Shown: positions 1,780 to 21,141 of the stretch, piece by piece
How the letters are laid out: each line of letters opens with the position of its first letter
How positions within the stretch are numbered: the first letter of the stretch is position 1
Virus record (IMG/VR): IMGVR_UViG_3300042894_005997
Span: 1 to 25,028 of that record
From: a virus
DNA length: 25,028 nucleotides
Strand: one strand, 5' to 3'
Notes under the pieces: generated by a model
Seen by the model: the letters and a program-made list of their open reading frames with translations, nothing else
Told to the model about the DNA's origin: nothing
Databases searched by the model: none
Translations under genes and position numbers: made by a program

Positions 1780-2075
1780 TAAGTCAAGACTTTTATAAGA
1801 TTTTCTTGTGTGAATCCGTGTAAAGGTTTTCCACCTTTCTTTAAATAATCTTGATAAATTTGTTGATAATCATCATATGTGTAGATTCTTGAATCTATTT
1901 CCGAATAGATTACTTCAGTATCATCTGTTGAAATTGTACTATTTCTAAGTTTGATAGAACCATAATTCGGACCCATTGGTCCAACTGGAGCAGTTGTTCC
2001 ACCACTAGCTCCGCCTACTGTTTGATCACCAATTGGAACATTTCTTTCATTAAATTGTTTCCAAGATTTAATCAT
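1776..2075 (-). CDS. Small protein with capsid-targeting-like N-terminus and Gly/Pro linker
   Basis: A 99-residue protein of unknown function. It begins MIKSWKQFNERN, matching the tag M-K-x-x-x-x-F-[EN]-x found on several proteins of this window. This is followed by a Gly/Thr/Pro-rich stretch (residues ~20-37, GGASGGTTAPVGPMGP) that looks like a flexible linker, then a mixed alpha/beta tail with a tyrosine-rich segment (IYTYDDYQQIYQDYLKKGG). The start codon at 2073-2075 overlaps the end of the upstream minus-strand gene by 8 nt, so the two are co-transcribed and probably translationally coupled. The 3' end shares TTAA with the fibre gene on the other strand. Its neighbours are tail genes, but the N-terminal tag would instead fit an internal head protein. 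No database family recognised. Confidence 0.6.
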   Translation of the reverse strand: MIKSWKQFNERNVPIGDQTVGGASGGTTAPVGPMGPNYGSIKLRNSTISTDDTEVIYSEIDSRIYTYDDYQQIYQDYLKKGGKPLHGFTQENLIKVLTY

Positions 2076-2523
2076 TTTTTACTGGTAATTTTTCAAAAAA
2101 CTCATCTTCCATTTCTAAGGACCATTCATCTTTATTTGTATTGTAAATTATATTGTAAAGTATATTATCTTGTAATTTAACTTTTTCTCCATTTTTTAGT
2201 GTCATGATGCAAGTTTCATCATCAAATCTATTATAGATTTTAACAATTTGAATTCCAATTTTACCATCTCTATCAACTAGATTGCAAATGACTTTTTTTC
2301 CATCTTCTAAAAGATTGGATATTTTAGTAAAGGTGGATTCTTTAGACAACATCCTGTAATCCATCATATCGTCTTCTGATGTTTGGTCATAATTATCTAA
2401 AAAATCTTGTTCAGTCTTAGATAATGTAACCTTTTTAGAGATTTTATCTAAGATTTGATTTAACCTAGCTTCTTTAAGAGATTCGGTTAATTTGAAATAA
2501 GAAATGAATTTCTTGAATGTCAT
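2068..2523 (-). CDS. Tagged small protein with ILDKI helical motif
   Basis: A 151-residue protein of unknown function. I chose the ATG at 2521-2523 because it gives an N-terminus (MTFKKFISYFKLTES) matching the capsid-targeting-like tag, with L-T-E-S at residues 12-15 resembling a T4 gp21-type cleavage site, and because a TATATA box then lies 26 nt upstream. ATGs at 2542-2544 and 2569-2571 are alternative starts. Residues 21-45 carry LNQILDKISKK...LSKTEQDFLDNY, a helix-turn-helix-like motif also seen in the protein encoded at 17128-17508. The C-terminal half (about residues 60-140) alternates hydrophobic and charged residues with turns (DRDGKIGI, LKNGEKVKL), like a small beta-barrel or SH3-type fold. 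It overlaps the downstream gene by 8 nt and is divergent from the large repeat protein at 2607. Confidence 0.6.
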   Translation of the reverse strand: MTFKKFISYFKLTESLKEARLNQILDKISKKVTLSKTEQDFLDNYDQTSEDDMMDYRMLSKESTFTKISNLLEDGKKVICNLVDRDGKIGIQIVKIYNRFDDETCIMTLKNGEKVKLQDNILYNIIYNTNKDEWSLEMEDEFFEKLPVKND

Positions 2524-2549
2524 AATGTTATTTCTATTTTTCATATTCT

Positions 2550-2555
2550 TATATA
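2550..2555 (-). promoter_or_regulatory. Candidate TATATA promoter box for the 2523 minus-strand gene
   Basis: Read on the minus strand, TTAATATATAAG lies 26 nt before the chosen ATG at 2523. It fits the spacing of the other TATATA boxes in this window, but it is only 5 nt before the alternative ATG at 2544. AT-rich background makes any single box weak evidence. Confidence 0.3.
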
Positions 2556-2573
2556 TTAAGAATGATATCATAA

Positions 2574-2584
2574 TTTATATATAC
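2574..2584 (+). promoter_or_regulatory. Candidate late promoter box TTTATATATAC upstream of the 2607 gene
   Basis: The 11-mer TTTATATATAC lies 22 nt before the ATG at 2607 and recurs exactly at 17574-17584 before another large virion-type gene. A near-identical form precedes the tail sheath gene. It resembles the AT-only -10 element of T4 late promoters (TATAAATA) in placement, though not in exact sequence. No -35 element was sought or required. Confidence 0.4.
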
Positions 2585-2606
2585 TCTACAAGATTAAGTT
2601 AATTAA

Positions 2607-5600
2607 ATGGATAAACAATTATTAGCAGCATTAGACAACCTTTCAATCGCTTTAGAGATGTTAACCGATTCTCTGAATAAAAATAAAGAGGCTAAAAGTC
2701 CCACTGCTACTGCCATGCAATCTGGTAATTTTGGAGAAGATTTGAAAAAGATTACGAAAGGAATACAAGAACTAAAAGATGATAATAAAAAGATTTTAGA
2801 TGATACTCAAACCATTATAAAACTCCAGAAAGAGAAGAAAGATAGTTCGATGAATGTTTTCGAAGGAGCAGGTAAGGAAAATAATAAAAAAATGTTAAAA
2901 GATGGAATATCTGTGATAGTTCTTATTGCTGGTGCTGTTTTGGCGATTGGATTAGCTTTCAAATTAATCGGTACTGTGGATTGGAAATCTGTTTTGGCTA
3001 TTTCAGTTGCTCTTCCGATGATCGCTTTCGCATTTGAAAAGATGGCACAAATAAAAGATTTAACGCCAGGTAAGGTTCTAATGATAGGATTATCAGTTGT
3101 TGGTTTATCTATTGCAATCATGTTGGCTTCAAGAGTATTAACCAAAGTAGTTCCGATTGGTTTGTTTCAGGCATTGACTGTTATTTTCATAGCTACGGCT
3201 TTTGGAGCGGCTGCTTTCGGTCTTGGTAATTTACTAAGAGCTTTTAAAGACATTAAGGCATCTGATGCACTAAAGGCATCTTTAGTTTTACCTTTAGTCT
3301 TATTAGCTGTTAGTGTTGCAATTGCACTTTCTTCTGTTGTTTTACAAGGTGTTCAACCAATAGGTTTATTTCAAGCTCTTACGGTTGTTTTAATTGCAGC
3401 TGCATTCGGAGTTGTTTCATATGGTTTAGGTAAATTGATTTCAGCATTCAAAGATATTTCACCTGGTGATGCAGTAGTTGCAGCATTTTTAATGCCAGTA
3501 GTGTTGATTGCTTTAAGTTATGCCATAGTAGAGACTTCTAAAATGTTTCAGTCCATAGTACCAATTGGATTATTTCAAGCATTGACTGCTATTCTAATCT
3601 CTGCAACTTTTGTTATCTTGGCTTACGCTGTGAAACCACTTATGAAAGGTGTAGAGGGTGTAACTTTAAAACAGATTGGTATGGGAACACTTGTTCTATT
3701 AGCTTTGACTGCTGCTGTAGTTGGTGCATCATGGTTAATGATGGGTCTAAAACCAGTTTCTTTTTCAACTATTGCAAAGTTTCTATTTTTATCAATTAGT
3801 CTTTCAGTATCAGTTATTGCTTTGGCTTTAGCGGTTAAAATTGTTAATAAACTTGGAACTACAAAAGATTATATTCAGGGTGGTGCTTCAATTGTTATAA
3901 TGGCAACCACTATAATGTTGAGTTCTTGGATGATTTCCAAGGGTAATTATAGTAATTATCCAGGATTATTTTGGAGTTTATTCTCAGGATTGGCAATCGC
4001 GGCATTTACCTTAGTAAACTGGTTAGTTATAAAGTTAGGAAGTGTAAAAGACTACATTCAAGGTGGTATATCAATTGTGGTCATAGCGACAACAATTATG
4101 ATTACTTCACATTTGATATCAGCTGGTAATTATACTAACTATCCACCATTAATGTGGTCAATTGGAACAGTTATAAGTATAGGATTATTTGGAATTGCCG
4201 CGGTTCTTTTGGGTACATTCTTGATGAATCCAACATTTTATATGGGACTGGCTGTTATTGTTATAATAGCTGCAACAATTGTTGCGGTTTCATACATTCT
4301 TGGGGCTGGTAGTTATGAAAAATATCCAACATTTGGTTGGTCAATGGGTGTTGGTTTGGCACTTGGAAGTTTTGCGGCAATGGCCGTTTTACTTGGTATA
4401 ATAGCTCCAATAGTTCTTTTGGGAGTTGCCACCGCTTTGATTATTAGTGGTTCAATAGTTGCTATTGATAAAATATTTCAAATGGGTTCCTACAAGGTTT
4501 ATCCACCTGACGAATGGGTTAATTCAACTATGATGTTGATAGGTAAGTTTGCCATAATGTCATCTGTATTAGCATTAGCTTTACCTTTAATTACCCTGGG
4601 TACAATTTCAATATTATTGATTGTTGGTGTGATTTATTTAATTGATAAAGTGTTTACTAGTGGTAAATATCGGAAATATCCAAATGAGATGTGGCAAAGA
4701 GGTGTGACAATGACTATCAATAAATTTGCCAGTTTAATTAAAGATATAAGAAAAAATGTAGGATTTGGAGATTTAATTTTTGGAATTTTGAAGATTATTG
4801 GACTGGCAGAGTCAATAGTTAAAATTGATAAAATATTTAGTGAGGGTAAATATGAAAAGTATCCTAAGAAAGAGTGGGTTGATGGTTCAATGTATGCTCT
4901 TGAGAAAATGAGTGACTTGGTAGGTAAACAAAGTATGTTTGCTGCAATTGGTGAAGCTATTGGCAACTTTTTTGGAGTTGGAGGTAAATCAACTGTGATT
5001 AAATTAGCCGAGGGTATTCTTCAATTGGATCAAGTATTCTCAAAGGGTAAATTTCAAAGTTATCCTTCTAAATCTTGGATAGATGGAATACAATATGCTT
5101 TGAATAGATTCCAGAATATGTTAGGTGGTAAAACTTTTATGGAATCTCTAAAGTCATTGGTTGGAATGGATTCAAATTCAGCTCTTATATCTCTTGCTAA
5201 ATCAGTTGGTCATGTTGCGGAAGCTTTTGCTAAAGGAGATTATACTAAGTATCCAAAACCTGAGTGGATAGATGGTACAATATATGCTCTTCAGAAATTT
5301 AAGTCTATATTGGGTATGTTAAATTTTGATGATTTAGGTTCCGGTGGCATTGTGAGTTCGATAAGTACTTTATTTGGTGGTAAAAGTCCACTAGAGCAAG
5401 CAGTTTCTAATATAACTTTATTAGCAATGGCATTTGAGAAGTTAGGTTCAGCTATGAGTTCTTTCTCAAATTCTATTCAAGACTTAGATGTTGAGAAACT
5501 TGGATTGGTTAAGAGTATGTCTAATAACGTCATCTTGCTTTCACTTATGGATCCTGATATGTTAGAAAGTGTTCTGACTAAGATAGAAGAAAAGGGTGGA

Positions 5601-7963: not shown

Positions 7964-8155
7964 ATGAAAGATAAAATTAAAAAGATTAAACAATTAAGAA
8001 ATAGTAGAAATAATACTATTAATTATAGTCAGTATATAGCCGAATCTATTGATAAATCTATTTCTTATACTGACTATTTGAGTCAGAACCTTTATATTGA
8101 TGATCAAACTAATATAAGTTATTCGGAATATTTAGCTGAAAAAATCAAACCTTAA
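7964..8155 (+). CDS. 63-residue protein with three ISYSEYLAE-type repeats
   Basis: A Lys/Arg-rich start (residues 1-17) is followed by three 11-12-residue repeats: INYSQYIAESID (19-30), ISYTDYLSQNLY (33-44) and ISYSEYLAEKIK (51-62). The repeat form is I-[NS]-Y-[ST]-x-Y-[IL]-[AS]-[EQ]. I recall similar repeats in hypothetical proteins of other large phages, where copy number varies, but cannot verify this. The start ATG lies 5 nt after the T run of a strong terminator, with no room for a normal promoter between them, so expression must rely on readthrough or on a promoter overlapping the hairpin. It overlaps the convergent DUF3008-like gene by 11 nt. Function unknown. Confidence 0.6.
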   Translation: MKDKIKKIKQLRNSRNNTINYSQYIAESIDKSISYTDYLSQNLYIDDQTNISYSEYLAEKIKP

Positions 8156-8414
8156 ATTCTGAAAATCTAACTAGATGTGTTAGTGATTCTTCGACTTTAG
8201 TTACTTTTTCTGGTAATCCTTTGTGTTTAGTTTTAGCAAAATCTTTTAATGCTTTAGAACCTTTCTTTTTTCCCTTCTTCATAAAGGATTTAGCAACATT
8301 TTTTATGTATTCAGGTACATCCTTATTCTTACCGGTTGCGTAAGCATAAGCCGCTCCCATTAGTCTTTGTTGTTTTTTAGATTTCGATTTTTCATTAATC
8401 TGCATATTTTTCAT
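8145..8414 (-). CDS. DUF3008-like basic protein
   Basis: An 89-residue, very Lys-rich protein. KSKKQQRLMGAAYAYATGK, then IKNVAKSFMKKGKKKG, then LKDFAKTKHKGLPEKV match, from memory, the DUF3008 family of small phage and bacterial proteins (typically KSKKQQ..., a KSM-type helix, FA-TKHKGLP). Family function is unknown; the charge suggests nucleic-acid binding. The C-terminus (LTHLVRFSEFKV) is an extension that resembles the N-terminal tag seen on other proteins here (RF-SE-F). A second in-frame ATG at 8405 is possible. It is the last gene of a minus-strand group, 5 nt after the GNAT-like gene, and overlaps the convergent 63-residue gene by 11 nt. Confidence 0.65.
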   Translation of the reverse strand: MKNMQINEKSKSKKQQRLMGAAYAYATGKNKDVPEYIKNVAKSFMKKGKKKGSKALKDFAKTKHKGLPEKVTKVEESLTHLVRFSEFKV

Positions 8415-8419
8415 ATTAT

Positions 8420-8800
8420 TTATTTCTTTTCAAAAGTCACATTTGGATAATTTTGTATCAATTTATCCCAGAAACCACCACTCACATCTTGATCAATAAT
8501 AATTTTAAAATCGATTGGTAATGTATCAATTAAAGATTCTATGACTTTAGTTGCAAAACCTTTTTCACTAGTCGAGTTGACTATTGATTTTATCTCAACT
8601 GAGTCGTTATTTATTTTCAACATTAAACCTTTACATGGTTCTTTAGAGTCGATTCTAACTAATGGATTTTTTCCTTTGTCTAAAATGTTTGAGCAATAAA
8701 TAGTATTCTTTTTTACTTGTACATAGTCAAATAAATCCTCTAAAGACTTAGAGATTTTACCAATTAGTTGGAAAGATGATATTTCTAATATTAGTTTCAT
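8420..8800 (-). CDS. GNAT acetyltransferase-like protein (short, uncertain)
   Basis: With the ATG at 8798-8800 the product has 126 residues; I chose this start because it makes a classic ATGA overlap with the stop of the upstream hydrolase gene. A start at 8812 is also open. The C-terminal half, SEKGFATKVIESLIDTLP then DFKIIIDQDVSGGFWDKL and YPNVTF, resembles the last part of a GNAT fold: the G-x-[AG] loop and helix that bind acetyl-CoA, followed by the strand and [SG]GFW helix common in phage GNAT-like proteins. The N-terminal half is beta-rich and not recognisable. If active it would acetylate an amine on a protein or small molecule. The acetyl-CoA loop is weak (single G-F-A), so it may be degenerate. 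Confidence 0.45.
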   Translation of the reverse strand: MKLILEISSFQLIGKISKSLEDLFDYVQVKKNTIYCSNILDKGKNPLVRIDSKEPCKGLMLKINNDSVEIKSIVNSTSEKGFATKVIESLIDTLPIDFKIIIDQDVSGGFWDKLIQNYPNVTFEKK

Positions 8801-9414
8801 TTTATAGGACAATGTGATGCTGAGTAGATATATTTGTAATTTCTTTTGATATTAACTCCTAATTTCTCTGCAAGAGTCACTACATCTTCGAGACATTCAG
8901 AATCTGCTCCTCCAATAATTTCAACAGATTTACCTTTAAGATATTGTAAAATATCATAAAGTTTTTTAGGTGAATGAAACCAGACGTGCTTGTTACCAAT
9001 ATAGACAATAACCGTTCCTTCTTTTGTTGGGAACATATCACCTTTTTTAAGTCCTTTTTTGTCTTCTAAATTGGATATTTTATCATAAACTTCTTTATCT
9101 AATATCTTCTTATAGAAGTCAGCATCTACATCATAATTATATCGTTTTTCTATTCTTTCTTTTACATTTGGAAAGTTATAAAACTCATCTGAAATAGGAA
9201 TATCTGGATTCTTATCATATAGATAGTCTTTATCTACATTTTTACCCTCGTGATGATTATCAAATATCTGATAAACATTTTCAAAATTATTACAGTATTT
9301 TGTTAATTGATTAATATACATTTCGGTGAAGTACTTACTAAATGCTTTCTGTACGTCAACAATTATTAGATCTTTAATTCCGTTGTAATTTTCAAAAGTT
9401 TTAATCCATTTCAT
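8797..9414 (-). CDS. Isochorismatase-like cysteine hydrolase with capsid-targeting-like N-terminus
   Basis: A 205-residue protein from the ATG at 9412-9414; an upstream in-frame extension to 9444 falls inside the terminator hairpin and is rejected. After the tag MKWIKTFENYNG, the sequence follows the isochorismatase/nicotinamidase layout: a first strand with D20 (LIIVDVQKAF), K90 in IEKRYNYDVDADFY, and C174 in GGADSECLEDVVTLAEKLG. These would form the Asp-Lys-Cys catalytic triad. Such enzymes hydrolyse amides or vinyl ethers (nicotinamide, isochorismate, carbamoyl compounds); the substrate cannot be read from sequence. A phage enzyme of this type could alter NAD or amide metabolism. It starts just after a terminator and overlaps the GNAT-like gene by 4 nt (ATGA). 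Confidence 0.6.
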   Translation of the reverse strand: MKWIKTFENYNGIKDLIIVDVQKAFSKYFTEMYINQLTKYCNNFENVYQIFDNHHEGKNVDKDYLYDKNPDIPISDEFYNFPNVKERIEKRYNYDVDADFYKKILDKEVYDKISNLEDKKGLKKGDMFPTKEGTVIVYIGNKHVWFHSPKKLYDILQYLKGKSVEIIGGADSECLEDVVTLAEKLGVNIKRNYKYIYSASHCPIK

Positions 9415-9487: not shown

Positions 9488-10108
9488 TTAAAGTGGAAGT
9501 TCTTCTTCACCTTGACCTTCTTCTTCACCTTGACCTTCTTCTTCACCTTGACCTTCTTCTTCACCTTGACCTTCTTCTTCACCTTGACCTTCTTCTTCAC
9601 CTACTTCTTCAAATTCTCCTTGTCCTTGAGCCTGTCCTTGTCCTTGAGCCTGACCTTGTCCTTGAGTCTGTCCTTGAGCCTGTTCTTGTGGTTCAGCTTC
9701 TGTTTGAACCTGAACTTGACCTACTTGAGATTGTGCCTGTGCTTGAGGTTGTGCCTGTGCTTGAGGTTGTGCCTGTGCTTGAGGTTGTGCCTGTGCTTGT
9801 GACTGTCCTTCAGGTGTTCCTTGAGCGTCACCAGTAAGTGCACCAGCTGGAACTTGATCAACATTAGTGAAGTTCAAAGTAACGTATTTTACAATTTCTT
9901 CTGCGATATCTATATCACCAAAGAATTGTCTTAAATTTTTTCCAGTGTTATCTTTAACCTTTTTAACATATGCGTTAATAAGAGATTGTGGAATATCAAT
10001 CAAAGTTCTTACTTTATAAATGTCGTTAACCTGAAGAACCGATTCTTTTATGATTTCATCTCTTCTCTTGTTAGTACGATAAGATTCAAATTTTCTAATG
10101 TGTTTCAT
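9488..10108 (-). CDS. Tagged protein with Gln/Ala- and Glu/Gly-repeat tail (candidate internal head or core protein)
   Basis: A 206-residue protein. The N-terminus MKHIRKFESYRTN matches the tag shared by several proteins here, and I-K-E-S at residues ~20-23 resembles a T4-type prohead protease site. Residues ~24-95 form a small alpha/beta domain (LQVNDIYKVRTLIDIP, then LRQFFGDIDIAEEIVKYV). The remaining ~110 residues are low-complexity: AQPQAQ units, then GQGQAQ units, then six EEEGQG-type units ending EEELPL. The tail is extremely acidic and lacks aromatic or Cys residues, so it must be disordered. Acidic, repetitive and tagged proteins fit a scaffold/core or internal protein of the head, but there is no homology evidence. 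A terminator follows within ~30 nt. Confidence 0.6.
   Translation of the reverse strand: MKHIRKFESYRTNKRRDEIIKESVLQVNDIYKVRTLIDIPQSLINAYVKKVKDNTGKNLRQFFGDIDIAEEIVKYVTLNFTNVDQVPAGALTGDAQGTPEGQSQAQAQPQAQAQPQAQAQPQAQAQSQVGQVQVQTEAEPQEQAQGQTQGQGQAQGQGQAQGQGEFEEVGEEEGQGEEEGQGEEEGQGEEEGQGEEEGQGEEELPL
9500..9602. repeat. 18-bp tandem repeat (five perfect copies plus a partial)
   Basis: The unit TTCTTCTTCACCTTGACC occurs five times without a mismatch at 9500-9517, 9518-9535, 9536-9553, 9554-9571 and 9572-9589, and continues as a partial copy to 9602. Read on the minus strand it encodes the six-residue unit Glu-Glu-Glu-Gly-Gln-Gly. Perfect identity points to recent expansion by slippage or recombination. 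Confidence 0.95.
9731..9802. repeat. 18-bp tandem repeat (three perfect copies plus one diverged)
   Basis: The unit TTGTGCCTGTGCTTGAGG occurs at 9731-9748, 9749-9766 and 9767-9784; a fourth copy at 9785-9802 differs at its last three bases. On the minus strand it encodes the Ala/Gln/Pro unit (AQPQAQ) of the same protein tail as the 9500 repeat. The repeats between 9602 and 9731 are similar but imperfect (GQGQAQ coding). Confidence 0.9.
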
Positions 10109-11727: not shown

Positions 11728-12009
11728 ATGGCAACAATTACAAAAAAGAAAACTAAATCAGAAGTTGAACAAATTTTATCTAAACCCTTTAAAATCATAC
11801 TACATAATGATGATTTTAATTCTTTTGATTGGGTAATCACTTGTCTAATGAAGATATGTGGACATGAATACGAGCAAGCCAATCAAATCGCTCACCTAGT
11901 TCATTTCAAAGGTGAATGTGATGTTAAGTATGGTGATTTTGAAAAACTTTCAATTATGAAAGAGAAGCTTCAGAATGCTGGACTTTGTGTAACTCTAGAG
12001 GAGAATTAA
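11728..12009 (+). CDS. clpS: ClpS-like N-end-rule protease adaptor
   Basis: A 93-residue protein covering the full ClpS fold. FKIILHNDDFNSFDWVITCL matches the family start (y.viL.NDd.t....V...L), with N27-D28-D29 in the position of the residues that hold the N-degron alpha-amino group. The second half has ANQIAHLVHFKGECDVKYGD, matching A..I...VH..G......y, with H59 at the conserved histidine. ClpS binds proteins starting with Leu, Phe, Tyr or Trp and delivers them to ClpA (or ClpC) with ClpP. A phage copy could redirect the host protease or change its substrate choice. The N-terminal 20 residues (Lys-rich) may engage the ClpA N-domain. Start is 1 nt after the HAD gene; its stop shares TTAA with the TerL stop. 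Confidence 0.85.
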   Translation: MATITKKKTKSEVEQILSKPFKIILHNDDFNSFDWVITCLMKICGHEYEQANQIAHLVHFKGECDVKYGDFEKLSIMKEKLQNAGLCVTLEEN

Positions 12010-14105
12010 CCTTCCAATCCCCAACCTTTACGTGCTTCTTGAATTCTTCTACTCGATGTTAGATGTCTTCTTCTAACGTCTAGTAGTTGTTTATAATCTA
12101 CGCCTTCCGTATATTCAACTCTTTTCAAAACTTCTTCAATTAGATTTTGTATTTCGGTGTTTTGAAGACCAGTGAATAGGTCTTCTACAATACCTTTAAA
12201 ATCATTTTTACCATAAATTGCGGTTAAGTTTACAAGTGTCATTACTGTATCATCGTGTGATGAACCATCAGCTGCATATCTAACATTACCAGCAGTTGTA
12301 GTGTGTTTAATGAATGTAGTCATTTCTTGTATCGTTTCATGTTCACTAACAATAATTGCTCTACTATGAAGTCTATCTTGATAGTCTTTTACCATTAGAT
12401 TTTTATTTTCACCTACTTTCAGACCAATCTTTTCATCTAAAGCATCAACTCTATGTTTAAATCGGAAAAATACACCGGATCCATAGTCATTATTTCCACC
12501 GAAAACATTTGGTAAGTGAGCTAGTAACTCATTACCATAGGTATTCACCTCTAAAACCGATTTAACGTTATCTGAATTAAAATGTTCAAATGATAAAAGA
12601 TAAACTATTTCAGCTAAATCAGCCACAGATACAATATTACATCTATAAATACCGATTTGTTCTAATCTGACAAAATCTAAAACATCTTTATAGTTGGCTT
12701 TTTGTGAGTTAATTAAATCAACCGGTTTAGGAACCATTTTGAATATGTTAATTACTGAATAATCCAAACCTAATCCTTCCGCAACATCAATAGATAAAAC
12801 TATCTTATAATCTTTTCTTAATCTCGAATCATAAACAGATTCATCAGTTGACCATTTTAAGTCTTGATAAGAAAATCTTAACTTTCTATCAAATTCATCA
12901 ATTGGTTTCCATTCAAATTGTTTTTTATTTCTGGTTAGTTCGTCAATAAGTGCCTCATCGAGAAGACTTCTTGATGAGTTAATAAATCTCAAGTCAAATT
13001 CCTGGTTAAATGCTTCTTCCCCTCCGATATCTTTGATAGTTTCTTTTTTCCAAGTGGTTATTTCAGCAATCTGTGGTAGTTTTATTTCACCAATAGATTC
13101 TCTAATTACATCATCTTCAGAACAATCAACTGAGTTGAATACATTAATAACCCATTTTTTCAATTCTTCGTTATAGTATAACTCTGAGTTGTTTTTTGGA
13201 AATCTTTCTTTTAGATGGTTTAAAACCTGTTCAGATGTAATATTGAATTCTTCTAATTTCTTGGTATTCAACCTAACGTAAGTCACAAATCTTTTCGGAA
13301 CTTGCCACCAATAGACTCTCTTAGCTATATAAGATGATTTTTCACCTTCTGGCTTTTCAGCTTCCATAAGTAATTTGTGAAATAGATTAAATCCACTTGG
13401 TGTGGATGTTATGATAATTTTAGAGTTGTCAATGTTAGCAATGGTTGGGAAAACAGATTTATAGAACTTATCAGCAATATTATCTGGTAGATAAGCAAAC
13501 TCATCTAGATAAAGAAAGTCGGCAGATTGTCCAATAGAAGCTGTTTTAGTTGTGGCAAATCCTTTAATTCTACTTTTGTTTTCAAAAACTCTAAATTTTT
13601 GGTTCCAGTTAAGAATACCTTGTTGAAGAAAAAAAGGTAGTCTTTGATATATCTCTCCGATTTTATCAAGTACTTCAACTGCGGTATCTAATTTATTGGC
13701 GGTTACAAGAACATTTTTGTTATTATTGAAGAGAACAAAGTGTAACATTGTTATTGCTGATGAAATGGTTTTACCAGTTTGTCTTGAGGCCATTAGAATG
13801 TTAAATCGGTTGTTAAAGAAGTTATCTAAGATTTCTTTTTGATAATCTCTCAATCTTAATCGCACAGGTTCGCCTTTTTCACCTTTGACCCAACAATATT
13901 TCTCGGCAAAATATTGAATATCCATTTTACATTTAACATATTCATCAATTTCAGTAGATGACATTCGAAATGTTAATCCAGATTTTCTTAATCCAATTGT
14001 ATTTTCATAGAATGGATTTTCTATTCTACTTAAAACGAAACCGTTATTAATCTTTTCAGCGGCTTCTTCTATCATTTTTGTGTTCCAAATTATTTGTTTT
14101 GACAT
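12006..14105 (-). CDS. terL: Terminase large subunit (T4 gp17-like)
   Basis: A 699-residue DNA-packaging motor from ATG 14103-14105; an upstream GTG at 14159 would add an unlikely leader peptide. ATPase domain: Walker A ASRQTGKT (106-113; T4 has SRQLGKT), Walker B FLYLDEFAY (D201, E202), coupling motif ITSTPSG (232-238). Nuclease domain: IDVAEGLGLDY (D440), LEVNTYGN (E519), HDDTVMTL (D618, D619), which together supply the metal-binding acidic residues of the RNase-H-like headful nuclease. It cuts concatemeric DNA and drives it into the prohead. It is about 90 residues longer than T4 gp17, with extra sequence between the domains (about 285-345). It is a single-gene minus unit between ClpS (convergent, shared TTAA stop) and the 14166 gene (divergent). 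Confidence 0.95.
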   Translation of the reverse strand: MSKQIIWNTKMIEEAAEKINNGFVLSRIENPFYENTIGLRKSGLTFRMSSTEIDEYVKCKMDIQYFAEKYCWVKGEKGEPVRLRLRDYQKEILDNFFNNRFNILMASRQTGKTISSAITMLHFVLFNNNKNVLVTANKLDTAVEVLDKIGEIYQRLPFFLQQGILNWNQKFRVFENKSRIKGFATTKTASIGQSADFLYLDEFAYLPDNIADKFYKSVFPTIANIDNSKIIITSTPSGFNLFHKLLMEAEKPEGEKSSYIAKRVYWWQVPKRFVTYVRLNTKKLEEFNITSEQVLNHLKERFPKNNSELYYNEELKKWVINVFNSVDCSEDDVIRESIGEIKLPQIAEITTWKKETIKDIGGEEAFNQEFDLRFINSSRSLLDEALIDELTRNKKQFEWKPIDEFDRKLRFSYQDLKWSTDESVYDSRLRKDYKIVLSIDVAEGLGLDYSVINIFKMVPKPVDLINSQKANYKDVLDFVRLEQIGIYRCNIVSVADLAEIVYLLSFEHFNSDNVKSVLEVNTYGNELLAHLPNVFGGNNDYGSGVFFRFKHRVDALDEKIGLKVGENKNLMVKDYQDRLHSRAIIVSEHETIQEMTTFIKHTTTAGNVRYAADGSSHDDTVMTLVNLTAIYGKNDFKGIVEDLFTGLQNTEIQNLIEEVLKRVEYTEGVDYKQLLDVRRRHLTSSRRIQEARKGWGLEG

Positions 14106-14124
14106 AAAGGAAATAAACTTTTTT

Positions 14125-14133
14125 ACTATATAC
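14125..14133 (-). promoter_or_regulatory. Candidate TATATA promoter box for terL
   Basis: On the minus strand GTATATAGT lies 19 nt before the terL ATG, within the divergent gap that it shares with the box for the 14166 gene. Spacing agrees with other units; sequence is one base off the more frequent TATATATAC. Confidence 0.35.
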
Positions 14134-14139
14134 TTTACA

Positions 14140-14148
14140 TATATATAC
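14140..14148 (+). promoter_or_regulatory. Candidate late promoter box TATATATAC for the 14166 gene
   Basis: TATATATAC at 14140-14148 lies 17 nt before the ATG at 14166. The same 9-mer occurs within the boxes at 2574 and 17574. Confidence 0.4.
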
Positions 14149-14165
14149 AAATAATACACTCACTT

Positions 14166-15921: not shown

Positions 15922-16188
15922 TTATTTTAACCATTTTTCTAAAGAATCTACGACCTGAGTTAAGTTATTTAGACTCTTTACTTCTTTATTTTTGAAGTAG
16001 TCTTTCCAACTTTTCTTATCGTTATAGAATACTTTCTTAGCCACTTTGGCAAATTTCTCGACATTATCATCAATTGATTTACGAGATTGACTATTAAATC
16101 TTTTGTAGATGTTCTTTACACTTTGAGGAAAGTTCTCAATAGTTTTCTTTTCTTCATCAAAGTTTTCGAATAGTTGTAGATATTTCAT
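15922..16188 (-). CDS. Small basic protein with tag-like N-terminus
   Basis: An 88-residue protein of unknown function: tag-like start MKYLQLFENFDEE, then Lys/Asn-rich helices (KNIYKRFNSQSRKSI, DDNVEKFAKVAKKVFYNDKKSW, LTQVVDSLEKWLK). The net positive charge after the tag could suit DNA contact inside a head. The start comes 15 nt after the terminator of the previous unit, with TATATA only 5 nt before the ATG (AATATATAGATATATG), which would give a very short or absent leader. The HAD-like gene follows after 1 nt, so they are co-transcribed. Confidence 0.55.
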   Translation of the reverse strand: MKYLQLFENFDEEKKTIENFPQSVKNIYKRFNSQSRKSIDDNVEKFAKVAKKVFYNDKKSWKDYFKNKEVKSLNNLTQVVDSLEKWLK

Positions 16189-17611: not shown

Positions 17612-20524
17612 ATGAATAAGATTTTGACGAGAGAACAATACTTAGACACATTAAGGACACAAAGATATATCAAATATACTGGTGTGCCAAAATACAATGA
17701 GGCTTTTGCCAATGATGTTAATTGGGGAGATTCTTGGGTTGGTCGAATGATTAATTCTATTATAAGAAAGGGAAAAATTGCGATTAACCTTAGAAGAGTA
17801 GATTCTCTTGGTAAAAGATTACAATCTATTTTTGATGAACTAGTTGATTCTGGTAAAGTAATAGCTAATAATGGGGTAAAATCATTTATTACTACCAGTT
17901 GTTTAATAGGTGAATTAGAAAAAATGGTTAAAGGTGAATCTGGTAAAGAAGGTACTGAATCAGATATTCCAAATATTATTTCGCACATTGTATTTTTAAT
18001 TGGTCAAGTTCAAAGTTATTATTTAGAAGATAAGGAGGAGCTAATAGAAGTTCTTCAGGAGTTCAAAAAATATTTAGAGGGATTATTAAAAAATGTTAGT
18101 AAAAATTCTGATTCAGATGAAGAAGGATTGTCTGATGAAGGTGATAGCGGTGATATCGGTGATTATAATCAAATATTTTTCCAAGAATCTAAAAAACTTT
18201 TACAATCAGTTGTAGATTTACACAATATGATTAAAAATAATGTAGTTCGTTTTTCAGAAGAAGAATATGGTAAAAAGATTAATGTTGGTCTGCAATTTGA
18301 CCTACAAAAGTTTAATTCACTAAAGACAACATTTGATAAAGCTAAACCAGAAAATAAATTGTCTATTTTAAGGCAACTTGTTCCTATTATTGAGGCTGGA
18401 TTAGATTCCTATAAGTTAAAAAAAGATAAAGCAAATATAACACTTTTTGATTCTTATTTTAAGAAGTATGCTGGAATATTAAGTGGATTGGAAAGAGAAG
18501 CTCTTGATAGAAATAAGAAGAAAGAATTGCCTGGTGGTTCAAAAGATGTTTCAAAAACCGAAAAGACGCCATCTCCTACTAGTAAATCAGTTGAAAAAGA
18601 AATTAAAAAAGTATCAAATGAATCTCTACTGTTTGAGGAAGTCGAACAAAATTTACAAAAGGGTGAATTACATGCGAAAAATGCTTGGAAAAAAGTTGTA
18701 GATGCTTATAATAAGTCGGGAATTGCTAAATATATTCCACAAATAGAGGAGCTTTTATCAGTTGGTGTTAAAGATGGTAAAGAAAAGGCTATTCAAGCTA
18801 AGAAGAATATTATCTTAGTTTGTAAGCAAGTAATTACTAATAAGTTAACAGTTGGAAAGCCAATATCCTTTGACGATTTGATAAAAGAGGGTATTTATGA
18901 CAATGATTTGCCTAAAGCAATTTCATTATTCGGTAAAATCTTACTTTCTTTCAATGAAGACTTAGGTCTTGCTAGTGCCTATGGTTCAAGAGGTAGAGAT
19001 CCTAAAACGGGTCAGGCACTTGGTACTAATCCAGTTAAAGTTTTTGTAAACTCATTTAATAGTCTTGAGAAGACACTTCCGAAACTTGGTGGTGTTAAAA
19101 AAGAATATAAAGCTGGTGATACCGTTAAATATAAATTGACAAAGGGTGGTGAAGGTGAAAAAGAAATTACAAAAGTCGAGGGAGATAGGTTCTTCTTTAA
19201 GAGTAAAAGTGGAGAGGAATTATCAGCACCATTAAAAATTATAACAGGGAAAGTAGAAAAGAAACAGGAATCTATAATATCAAATTATGTTAGTTTCTCA
19301 AAAATATTTGAGAAAACAGAAGGAGTTGATTATGATGAGGTCTCTGATAAGTTTGATGAACTATTTACAGATGAGATAATCAAAAAGTTCTCAATAGAAG
19401 AGTCTAATGTGGAGGAAATCAAAGGATTAGGAAGTGAAGGAGACACTATTATAATTACTGGTGCTGATCCAATTATGGAAATAGTTAGATTGTTTCAAAG
19501 AGCGTGGAGATTGCACACACCAGGTATAATTCCATCTGGAAGAACTGGTGGTAAAGTTTCAACATCTGTTTTCATGGAATATGAAAACCTGGGTGACCGA
19601 GATGGTACTCCAGATGCTCCTGGTTCAGGTCCTTATAGAAATATTGAGTTATATGAAAAATGGAATGAGGCTGTTATGAATATTTTGAGCAATTCTAAAT
19701 ACAGAACAACAATATTTAGTGATGATGCTAAATTTGCTTGGAATTATAAAGAAAAGACTGAGGTTGCTAAAATCAGTAAGGATAATTTATCTAAACAAGG
19801 AAAAGCAGAAATTGAAGGAGCAAAGCCTTTGGGTAAAATACTTCTTCGTTTCGTAAATAGACTATTATCTGATTCAGAAATGTATAAAAAAGATGGTGCA
19901 TTGCCTAAATTTCTAAATGAGTATTTTGGCCTTGATAAGGATTCCATTGATAAGTTGGGTGGTATAGTCTTCTCTGGATTTAAAAAGGATGCTAATGGCA
20001 ATACTGAAACAGCAGGTGAGATTAAACAAACTTTATGTAAATTTGAAAAGTGGAATAAGGTTGATGAGATGAGAAGCAAATCAGCTTTTAAGGATTATTT
20101 TAAGAGTGATGAGTCTGAAGGATTGGTTTTTAGAATTAAGGCTAACGGTAAATATAAATATTTTTATACTTTGAAAAAAATTCAAAACTCTGTTTATTTC
20201 TTAATTTTCGACTCTTTTGTTTTTGATACTAAAAATTGTAGTGTTTCTGAAAAAAGAAATCCAGTAAGTGATGCTAAAGTTGTTAAGTTTGATGTCAATG
20301 CTCAACAAAATTTTATTGATGGGAAAACTATAAAACTTGAAACTTGGGATGTATATGGAAAATTAGATAATGAAGGAATTTTGGACTACAAGTTGGAGTC
20401 AGAACCATCAGTACTTATTGATAATAAAGAGAAGAGTCCTTTTAAAGATTGTAAATTTGATAATCAGAATCAGAAGAAGAATATTAAAAATCACATCAAC
20501 AAAATTAAACCAAACTTGATATGA
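17612..20524 (+). CDS. Large multi-segment protein of unknown function (virion-associated candidate)
   Basis: A 970-residue protein. N-terminus: MNKILTREQYLDTLRTQRYI, then YNEAFANDVNWGDSWVGRMI (29-47), then a basic helix, a start pattern I associate with structural proteins of large phages. Residues ~60-165 and 190-300 are helical; ~166-185 is an acidic linker (DSDEEGLSDEGDSGD); ~303-335 is a Lys/Ser/Pro linker. Residues ~498-545 (YKAGDTVKYKL, EGDRFFFKSKSGEEL) look like an SH3- or Tudor-like barrel. Following it, SNYVSFSKIFEKTEG resembles the tag motif at an internal position. The last third is mixed alpha/beta with aromatic strands (YKYFYTLKKIQNSVYFLIFD). No enzyme motif found. It overlaps the next gene by ATGA at 20521-20524, so they are translationally coupled. 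Neighbouring sheath and terminase genes suggest a virion or assembly role. Confidence 0.65.
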   Translation: MNKILTREQYLDTLRTQRYIKYTGVPKYNEAFANDVNWGDSWVGRMINSIIRKGKIAINLRRVDSLGKRLQSIFDELVDSGKVIANNGVKSFITTSCLIGELEKMVKGESGKEGTESDIPNIISHIVFLIGQVQSYYLEDKEELIEVLQEFKKYLEGLLKNVSKNSDSDEEGLSDEGDSGDIGDYNQIFFQESKKLLQSVVDLHNMIKNNVVRFSEEEYGKKINVGLQFDLQKFNSLKTTFDKAKPENKLSILRQLVPIIEAGLDSYKLKKDKANITLFDSYFKKYAGILSGLEREALDRNKKKELPGGSKDVSKTEKTPSPTSKSVEKEIKKVSNESLLFEEVEQNLQKGELHAKNAWKKVVDAYNKSGIAKYIPQIEELLSVGVKDGKEKAIQAKKNIILVCKQVITNKLTVGKPISFDDLIKEGIYDNDLPKAISLFGKILLSFNEDLGLASAYGSRGRDPKTGQALGTNPVKVFVNSFNSLEKTLPKLGGVKKEYKAGDTVKYKLTKGGEGEKEITKVEGDRFFFKSKSGEELSAPLKIITGKVEKKQESIISNYVSFSKIFEKTEGVDYDEVSDKFDELFTDEIIKKFSIEESNVEEIKGLGSEGDTIIITGADPIMEIVRLFQRAWRLHTPGIIPSGRTGGKVSTSVFMEYENLGDRDGTPDAPGSGPYRNIELYEKWNEAVMNILSNSKYRTTIFSDDAKFAWNYKEKTEVAKISKDNLSKQGKAEIEGAKPLGKILLRFVNRLLSDSEMYKKDGALPKFLNEYFGLDKDSIDKLGGIVFSGFKKDANGNTETAGEIKQTLCKFEKWNKVDEMRSKSAFKDYFKSDESEGLVFRIKANGKYKYFYTLKKIQNSVYFLIFDSFVFDTKNCSVSEKRNPVSDAKVVKFDVNAQQNFIDGKTIKLETWDVYGKLDNEGILDYKLESEPSVLIDNKEKSPFKDCKFDNQNQKKNIKNHINKIKPNLI

Positions 20525-21141
20525 TAGAGATACTTAATTTTGAAAATTTTTCTAAAAATGAGTTGTTCGGATTTGGAAAAAAGTATGAATTCGATTCAAA
20601 AGCAATAGAAGTGTTCCAAGATTTATTGGAAAATATAGACAAAATTGAGGTTCAGAAATTTGCAGATTATAGAAGAGAGGTGACATTAACCAAGAAGAAA
20701 GAAGAACAAGATTCGTCTATTGAGAGCTCAGGTGAAGTGAAAGAGGCTAGAATTATGAGAGTTCCGAAATCTCAAACTAAAATTACAAAGGTTGGAAAAG
20801 TTGAATCTAAAAATAAACAAAATACTCAAATTGATGACACTGATGTTGCGGTACTTAAAAATTACTCAAAGCATAGAAAAAGTTCTAAGATATGGGGTAG
20901 TTTTAAAGAAAACTCTTACTCACTTGTAATAAATGGTAAACACTTTATAGGTGATGTTAGAGGTGAAGAAGGTAAAATGTTAGTAAATCCTAAATTAACT
21001 GAGATGTATTGGAATTTTCTGTCCGATGTTGCCAATTTACAAGAAAAATATCAAAAGCGATTAGTTAGCGATTCACAACGAGATTCAGAGTTAAGTAAAA
21101 TAAAGACAAAATATCAAGCACAACTTTCAAAGTTCAAATAA
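20521..21141 (+). CDS. Hypothetical protein coupled to the 970-residue gene
   Basis: A 206-residue protein of unknown function. It begins MIEILNFENFSKNE, a variant of the shared tag (F-EN-F then N-E). Residues ~45-105 are a charged, Lys/Glu-rich and probably disordered middle (LTKKKEEQDSSIESSGEV, VGKVESKNKQNTQ). Residues ~115-165 form a small folded segment (SKIWGSFKENSYSLVINGKHFIGDVRG), and the end is a coiled coil (DVANLQEKYQKRLVSDSQRDSELSKIKTKYQAQLSKF). The ATGA overlap with the upstream gene implies equal or coupled production, so the two products may act together. A strong terminator follows 3 nt after the stop. Confidence 0.65.
   Translation: MIEILNFENFSKNELFGFGKKYEFDSKAIEVFQDLLENIDKIEVQKFADYRREVTLTKKKEEQDSSIESSGEVKEARIMRVPKSQTKITKVGKVESKNKQNTQIDDTDVAVLKNYSKHRKSSKIWGSFKENSYSLVINGKHFIGDVRGEEGKMLVNPKLTEMYWNFLSDVANLQEKYQKRLVSDSQRDSELSKIKTKYQAQLSKFK

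Follow-up and report, generated by a model that had tools for sequence, protein, structure and literature searches.

A divergent isochorismatase-like cysteine hydrolase family of huge phages bears a recurring, capsid-targeting-like terminal peptide

The capsid-targeting sequence (CTS) of phage T4 consists of the first ten residues of the internal protein IPIII, in which targeting depends mainly on residues 4 and 7 and processing on residues 8 and 10, and the internal proteins of the T-even phages are diverse counter-defence proteins that have only the CTS in common (PMC9026906, PMC3012670). For phiKZ-like giant phages such as SPN3US and 201phi2-1, too, terminal peptides have been inferred to target proteins into the head. 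Among the huge phages, the Mahaphage clade, which includes genomes of 634, 642 and 735 kb, is predicted to replicate in Bacteroidetes (PMC7162821). Here we describe a hydrolase from huge phages, probably of this clade, that begins with a short peptide resembling the T4 CTS.

The DNA analysed (the window) is a 25,028-base IMG/VR virus record, a fragment of a virus genome. The open reading frame at 8797..9414, which a sequence-only reading had proposed as a gene without stating its strand, was borne out and lies on the minus strand, the plus strand being stop-rich; it runs from an ATG start to a TGA stop and encodes a divergent isochorismatase-like cysteine hydrolase of 205 amino acids. Relatives at identities from 93% down to about 30%, present on hundreds of viral contigs, attest that it is protein-coding. 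Near relatives occur in LR745206 (634,780 b) and LR756502 (642,428 b), and a distant one in LR756501 (735,411 b). No member was found in a collection of bacterial and archaeal genomes, nor in plasmids. The hydrolase represents a new divergent family within a known superfamily. As a separate observation, the start regions of the LR745206 open reading frames (ORFs) that we examined are A/T-rich and without an obvious Shine-Dalgarno sequence, which would fit a Bacteroidota host.

The first ten codons (9385..9414, minus strand) specify MKWIKTFENY, a capsid-targeting-like peptide that recurs at the N-termini of other proteins and, in the AlphaFold2 (AF2) models described below, lies outside the fold, disordered or weakly helical (pLDDT 41-46). 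Its recurrence was measured over the complete sequence of LR745206, which a longest-ORF rule divides into 894 ORFs. The pattern M[KRNEI]x[ILVM]xx[FY][EDNSQ]x[FYHWL], a strict form of the motif MK[YH][LI]Kx[FY]Ex[FY], starts 36 of these, compared with a mean of 0.68 when N-termini were shuffled (maximum 3 in 200 trials), and it occurs at only 4 of 3,190 internal methionines. Positions left free by the pattern are conserved as well: position 3 is Y or H in 30 of the 36, and position 5 is K or R in 25. A looser pattern gave 110 ORFs, some of which, a topoisomerase for example, evidently match by chance; the strict count alone therefore serves as evidence. With the looser pattern, L/I-x-E follows the tag in 42 of 110 ORFs versus 222 of 807, a modest enrichment. 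When 63 chosen tagged ORFs were compared with known families, those recognised included PPK2, NUDIX (two), DHH, a putative zinc protease, DUF2608 and a polynucleotide or thymidylate kinase. Within the hydrolase family itself the tag is present on 154 of 159 members, and its residues 1-10 are conserved at 61%, compared with 35% for the linker (residues 11-14). The motif that had been noticed at the start of the protein is therefore a recurring terminal peptide (36 ORFs against 0.7 expected).

Similar peptides are also found at C-termini. Two hydrolase members, on contigs L183 and L184, lack the N-terminal tag and begin right at strand 1. The L184 member ends in ESKILKFKDFIKNIK, and two adjoining ORFs end in KIIRTFENF plus a few residues; together, the ORFs of L184 with C-terminal tag-like peptides (KIIRTFENF..., ILKFKDF...), the hydrolase member included, lie at 1070-1447, 1440-2033 and 3969-4523, all on the minus strand. 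A few LR745206 ORFs likewise end in tag-like peptides (RIIKKFNKFK; IVKFESFISKK), although enrichment at this end is weak (4 versus 1.7 expected). Since codon choice at the tag positions is the usual one of the LR745206 genome, and since similar peptides occur at C-termini, we rejected a nucleotide-level origin and regard the tag as a modular peptide feature. The untagged L183 member (1986-3101, plus strand) carries a C-terminal extension of about 190 amino acids, similar to the way in which a neighbouring ORF begins (NESIKDILKGKSKEDI versus NENIKDLLVGKSSEDI).

The hydrolase gene sits in a head module. The large terminase subunit, identified by profile search at 12006..14159 (minus strand), marks the head and packaging genes, and adjoining it is a ClpS-like adaptor (11728-12009, plus strand; Pfam E 6e-18) that is kept in all main-clade loci compared. 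The order terminase, ClpS, HAD protein, two small proteins, tagged repeat protein, hydrolase was found in 7 of 7 such loci, and distant members have none of these neighbours in common. The repeat protein, immediately upstream of the hydrolase (9488..10108, minus strand), bears the tag MKHIRKFESY and a repetitive tail that is Q/A-rich and then E/G-rich, with only weak, low-complexity matches. Downstream, a gene at 8420..8800 (minus strand) overlaps the hydrolase stop by ATGA, and is probably translationally coupled to it, although it is kept in only some relatives; its product looks like a GNAT acetyltransferase to the eye and gave no profile match. Further tag-like peptides in the window occur on a small DUF3008-like protein (8145..8414, minus strand), where HLVRFSEFKV is a possible C-terminal tag, on a tagged ORF starting MKYLQLFENF (15922..16188, minus strand), and on an ORF with the tag-like start MIEILNFENF (20521..21141, plus strand).

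In LR745206 the hydrolase gene lies between the terminase, upstream, and the portal; genes for a head protease and a major head protein, both of T4 type, are also found downstream. PHROG profiles matched the head maturation protease (E 4e-30), the major head protein (E 4e-24) and the portal (E 2e-59); the protease matched Pfam S77 below cut-off only. The major head protein is followed by a row of three small ORFs whose starts are tag-like (208377-209168, minus strand) and which are possibly head core proteins; one of them (208377-208574) has a tag-like peptide at both ends.

How far does the tag resemble the T4 CTS? In both cases about ten N-terminal residues are carried by otherwise unrelated proteins, and the huge-phage tag has hydrophobic anchors at positions 4 and 7 and also a Glu at position 8. 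LR745206, a longer sequence than the fragment in the window, has genes for a head protease and a major head protein of T4 type. In contrast to the T4 CTS, the tag is found on dozens of proteins, metabolic enzymes among them, it has a different sequence with a conserved E8, and tag-like peptides also occur at C-termini, whereas the classical T4 CTS is N-terminal. At about ten residues it is also unlike the head-protein propeptides of phiKZ-like phages, most of which exceed 100 residues. The present hydrolase further differs from the T4 arrangement in having no L/I-x-E after the tag, but TFE at positions 6-8. Across the family L/I-x-E, after or within the tag, takes the forms LFE, LKE, LIE and ILE (17 of 56 non-redundant members, all [ILM]xE counted), and most other members have TFE at 6-8. 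In 201phi2-1, cutting at TFE has been reported (PMC5694885). Of the sequence-only reading's description of the tag as capsid-targeting-like, then, the recurring terminal peptide is strongly supported, and the analogy with T4, together with the nearby T4-type head genes, makes capsid targeting plausible; we consider it somewhat favoured as the role of the tag.

Another sorting role is less probable, though a real contender. The same enzyme would then be directed by its tag to some other place in the infected cell, such as a replication compartment, a membrane or some other assembly made by the phage, with no packaging involved. Consistent with this, tagged genes are spread all over LR745206, many of them encode enzymes of nucleotide or phosphate metabolism, and the set is larger than what T4 packages; the peptides at C-termini also depart from the N-terminal classical CTS. 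Against it stand the T4-type head genes that LR745206 also carries and the match to the T4 CTS at positions 4 and 7; moreover, T4 Alt, according to the literature, has propeptides at both ends. We give this possibility perhaps a third of our confidence.

We turn to the enzyme that bears the tag. Profiles from Pfam, PHROG and NCBIfam did not match the hydrolase, so that the lack of an isochorismatase HMM match, which the sequence-only reading had named as grounds for refutation, was in the literal sense observed. Specifically, none of 11 family members matched PF00857 (Isochorismatase) at E values up to 10, and matches to PF00857 were absent from LR745206 and LR756502. Sequence and profile searches of PDB chains with the hydrolase found nothing, and a fold search of BFVD returned nothing specific. 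Predicted structures were more informative. A first, independent AF2 model, built from 31 sequences, reached pLDDT 84; in the PDB it matched best the nicotinamidase SaPncA, along with 2a67, a protein of the isochorismatase family. The second, from 53 more diverse sequences (pLDDT 86, pTM 0.83), had as its ten best PDB matches only isochorismatase-like cysteine hydrolases, including 8rkz, 2a67, PnC1 and YecD, at modest Foldseek scores (probability 0.72-0.97, E 0.02-0.15, TM 0.35-0.47); among the ten are two proteins labelled MAR1, which have an isochorismatase-like fold. Both models have strand 1 ending just ahead of D20, strand 2 ending at D52 and strand 3 ending at K90, with C174 capping the helix after strand 4. 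At the level of topology, the predicted fold therefore does not set D20, K90 and C174 apart, which had been the other ground for refutation.

A profile-profile alignment against nine nicotinamidases and relatives gave E 1.7e-4, with a score of 34 versus at most 18 in 60 column shuffles, and paired hydrolase residues with nicotinamidase residues as D20-D9, Q22-Q11, F25-F14, D52-D47, H54-H49 and C174-C150. Most of this signal comes from strand 1, and with strand 1 left out the alignment was not significant. An hhalign match of the C-terminal half was rejected: it paired with the unrelated tail of the canonical PncA P0003, and once that tail was trimmed it did not beat the shuffles. Weak cysteine synthase matches, in faecal phage records and the PDB, were set aside as chance, L018 being part of an ordinary cysteine synthase. 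None of the comparisons included the Borreliella lp25 pncA piece.

The hydrolase shares with the isochorismatase-like superfamily (PF00857; 2a67, YecD 1j2r, PnC1 3r2j, SaPncA 6kua, 8rkz) its predicted fold and strand order, an Asp-Lys-Cys set at the ends of strands 1, 3 and 4, and a DxQxxF motif; it differs in having no profile match, an extra hairpin, a GGxDxECxxD nucleophile motif and an N-terminal tag. Weighing the fold, profile-profile and triad evidence with the null profile searches, we accept membership of the superfamily and place the protein outside the Pfam family as now defined. The earlier isochorismatase-like call is thus upheld for the superfamily, through the predicted fold and invariant triad, and not for the Pfam family.

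The triad was found at the positions given by the sequence-only reading. In the window, the codon of D20, the putative catalytic Asp at the end of strand 1 within DxQxxF, is at 9355..9357; that of K90, the putative catalytic Lys at the end of strand 3, at 9145..9147; and that of C174, the putative nucleophile at a helix N-terminus in GGADSECLED, at 8893..8895 (all on the minus strand; conservation and model, with alignment for D20 and C174). Among 160 collected members D20 is invariant in the 159 that cover it, and K90 and C174 in all 160. One member search fetched partly on IEKRYNY, which holds K90, and another on GGxDxEC, which holds C174; each of these two residues is nevertheless also invariant in a set whose search did not demand it, and D20 was required by only one of six patterns in a further search. 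D171, E173, C174 and D177 lie inside the DNA pattern of one search, so that their invariance is independent only in the remaining set. Q49, D52, F81 and G125 are also invariant. The spacing from K90 to C174 is 84 residues, versus 44 from K106 to C150 in P0003; the roughly 40 extra residues include a predicted beta hairpin specific to the family (codons 127-148, 8971..9036, minus strand; conservation and model), in which H143 is invariant and N141 and W145 nearly so.

Does the enzyme act on nicotinamide? The metal site of the nicotinamidase PncA has four ligands, one Asp and three His. The hydrolase resembles PncA in its triad, its DxQxxF motif and, in the main clade, D52 and H54 at two of the metal-ligand places. 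D52 (codon 9259..9261, minus strand), which aligns with the first ligand by conservation and alignment, is kept throughout, but position 54 is H in 152 members and N in 8, the N falling in the deep clade, and the other two metal His of P0003 have no counterpart in the family. Furthermore, LR756501 has, besides its hydrolase-family member, a gene for a canonical PncA (48 bits to PF00857; E 3.5e-39 to the NCBIfam nicotinamidase model). Since only the Asp ligand is fully kept and a canonical PncA coexists in LR756501, nicotinamide is not favoured as the substrate, and the earlier suggestion that the enzyme acts on nicotinamide or counters an NAD-based defence finds no specific support. This PncA, near 423 kb, is close to a NadR-looking ORF (NMN adenylyltransferase plus kinase), possibly a phage NAD salvage pair (1303-1974 and 2347-3327 in L101, both on the minus strand).

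A nicotinamidase proper, injected or made early, that rebuilds NAD or removes the nicotinamide released by NAD-cleaving defences is accordingly improbable: SaPncA and PnC1 are among the fold matches, and DxQxxF and D-x-H are shared, but the metal site and the insert differ, the separate PncA in LR756501 stands beside a NadR-looking ORF, and no nicotinate salvage gene was seen within the 25,028-base window. Equally unlikely is a non-catalytic structural or binding protein reusing the hydrolase fold, which the head-module position and the many invariant residues beyond the triad (Q49, D52, F81, G125, H143) might suggest, since D, K and C invariant at three strand ends across deep divergence form an active-site pattern, and distant members sit among unrelated neighbours.

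Taken together, the reading that we rate best, at about an even chance, is an isochorismatase-like cysteine amidohydrolase, of a family of its own, with a head-sorting peptide that has it enclosed and injected. By analogy with the superfamily, C174 would attack a small amide-type substrate at its carbonyl, D20 serving as the base and K90 having a stabilising role. By analogy with T4, the first ten residues would bind the head core during prohead assembly in the manner of the CTS, and the hydrolase would therefore be enclosed with the DNA and then injected into the bacterium.

The tag may have consequences beyond this one protein, and its genome-wide occurrence adds interest to what would otherwise be a divergent enzyme alone. 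It is conceivable, though we put it somewhat short of even, that Mahaphage-type huge phages load dozens of proteins, many of them metabolic enzymes, into the head by means of one short terminal zip code. If so, the cargo would include this hydrolase, a polyphosphate kinase and Nudix and DHH hydrolases, such that a ready-made enzyme set enters with the DNA. Even if the tag sorts its proteins elsewhere, it would be a terminal address common to some dozens of the proteins of one phage, and directly testable as such. If it does load heads, then the proteins injected by the largest known phages, which are metagenomic finds, could be listed by reading protein ends; the enzymatic cargo would greatly exceed that of T4 with its few internal proteins, and the hydrolase would represent a widespread enzyme family acting in the first minutes of infection.
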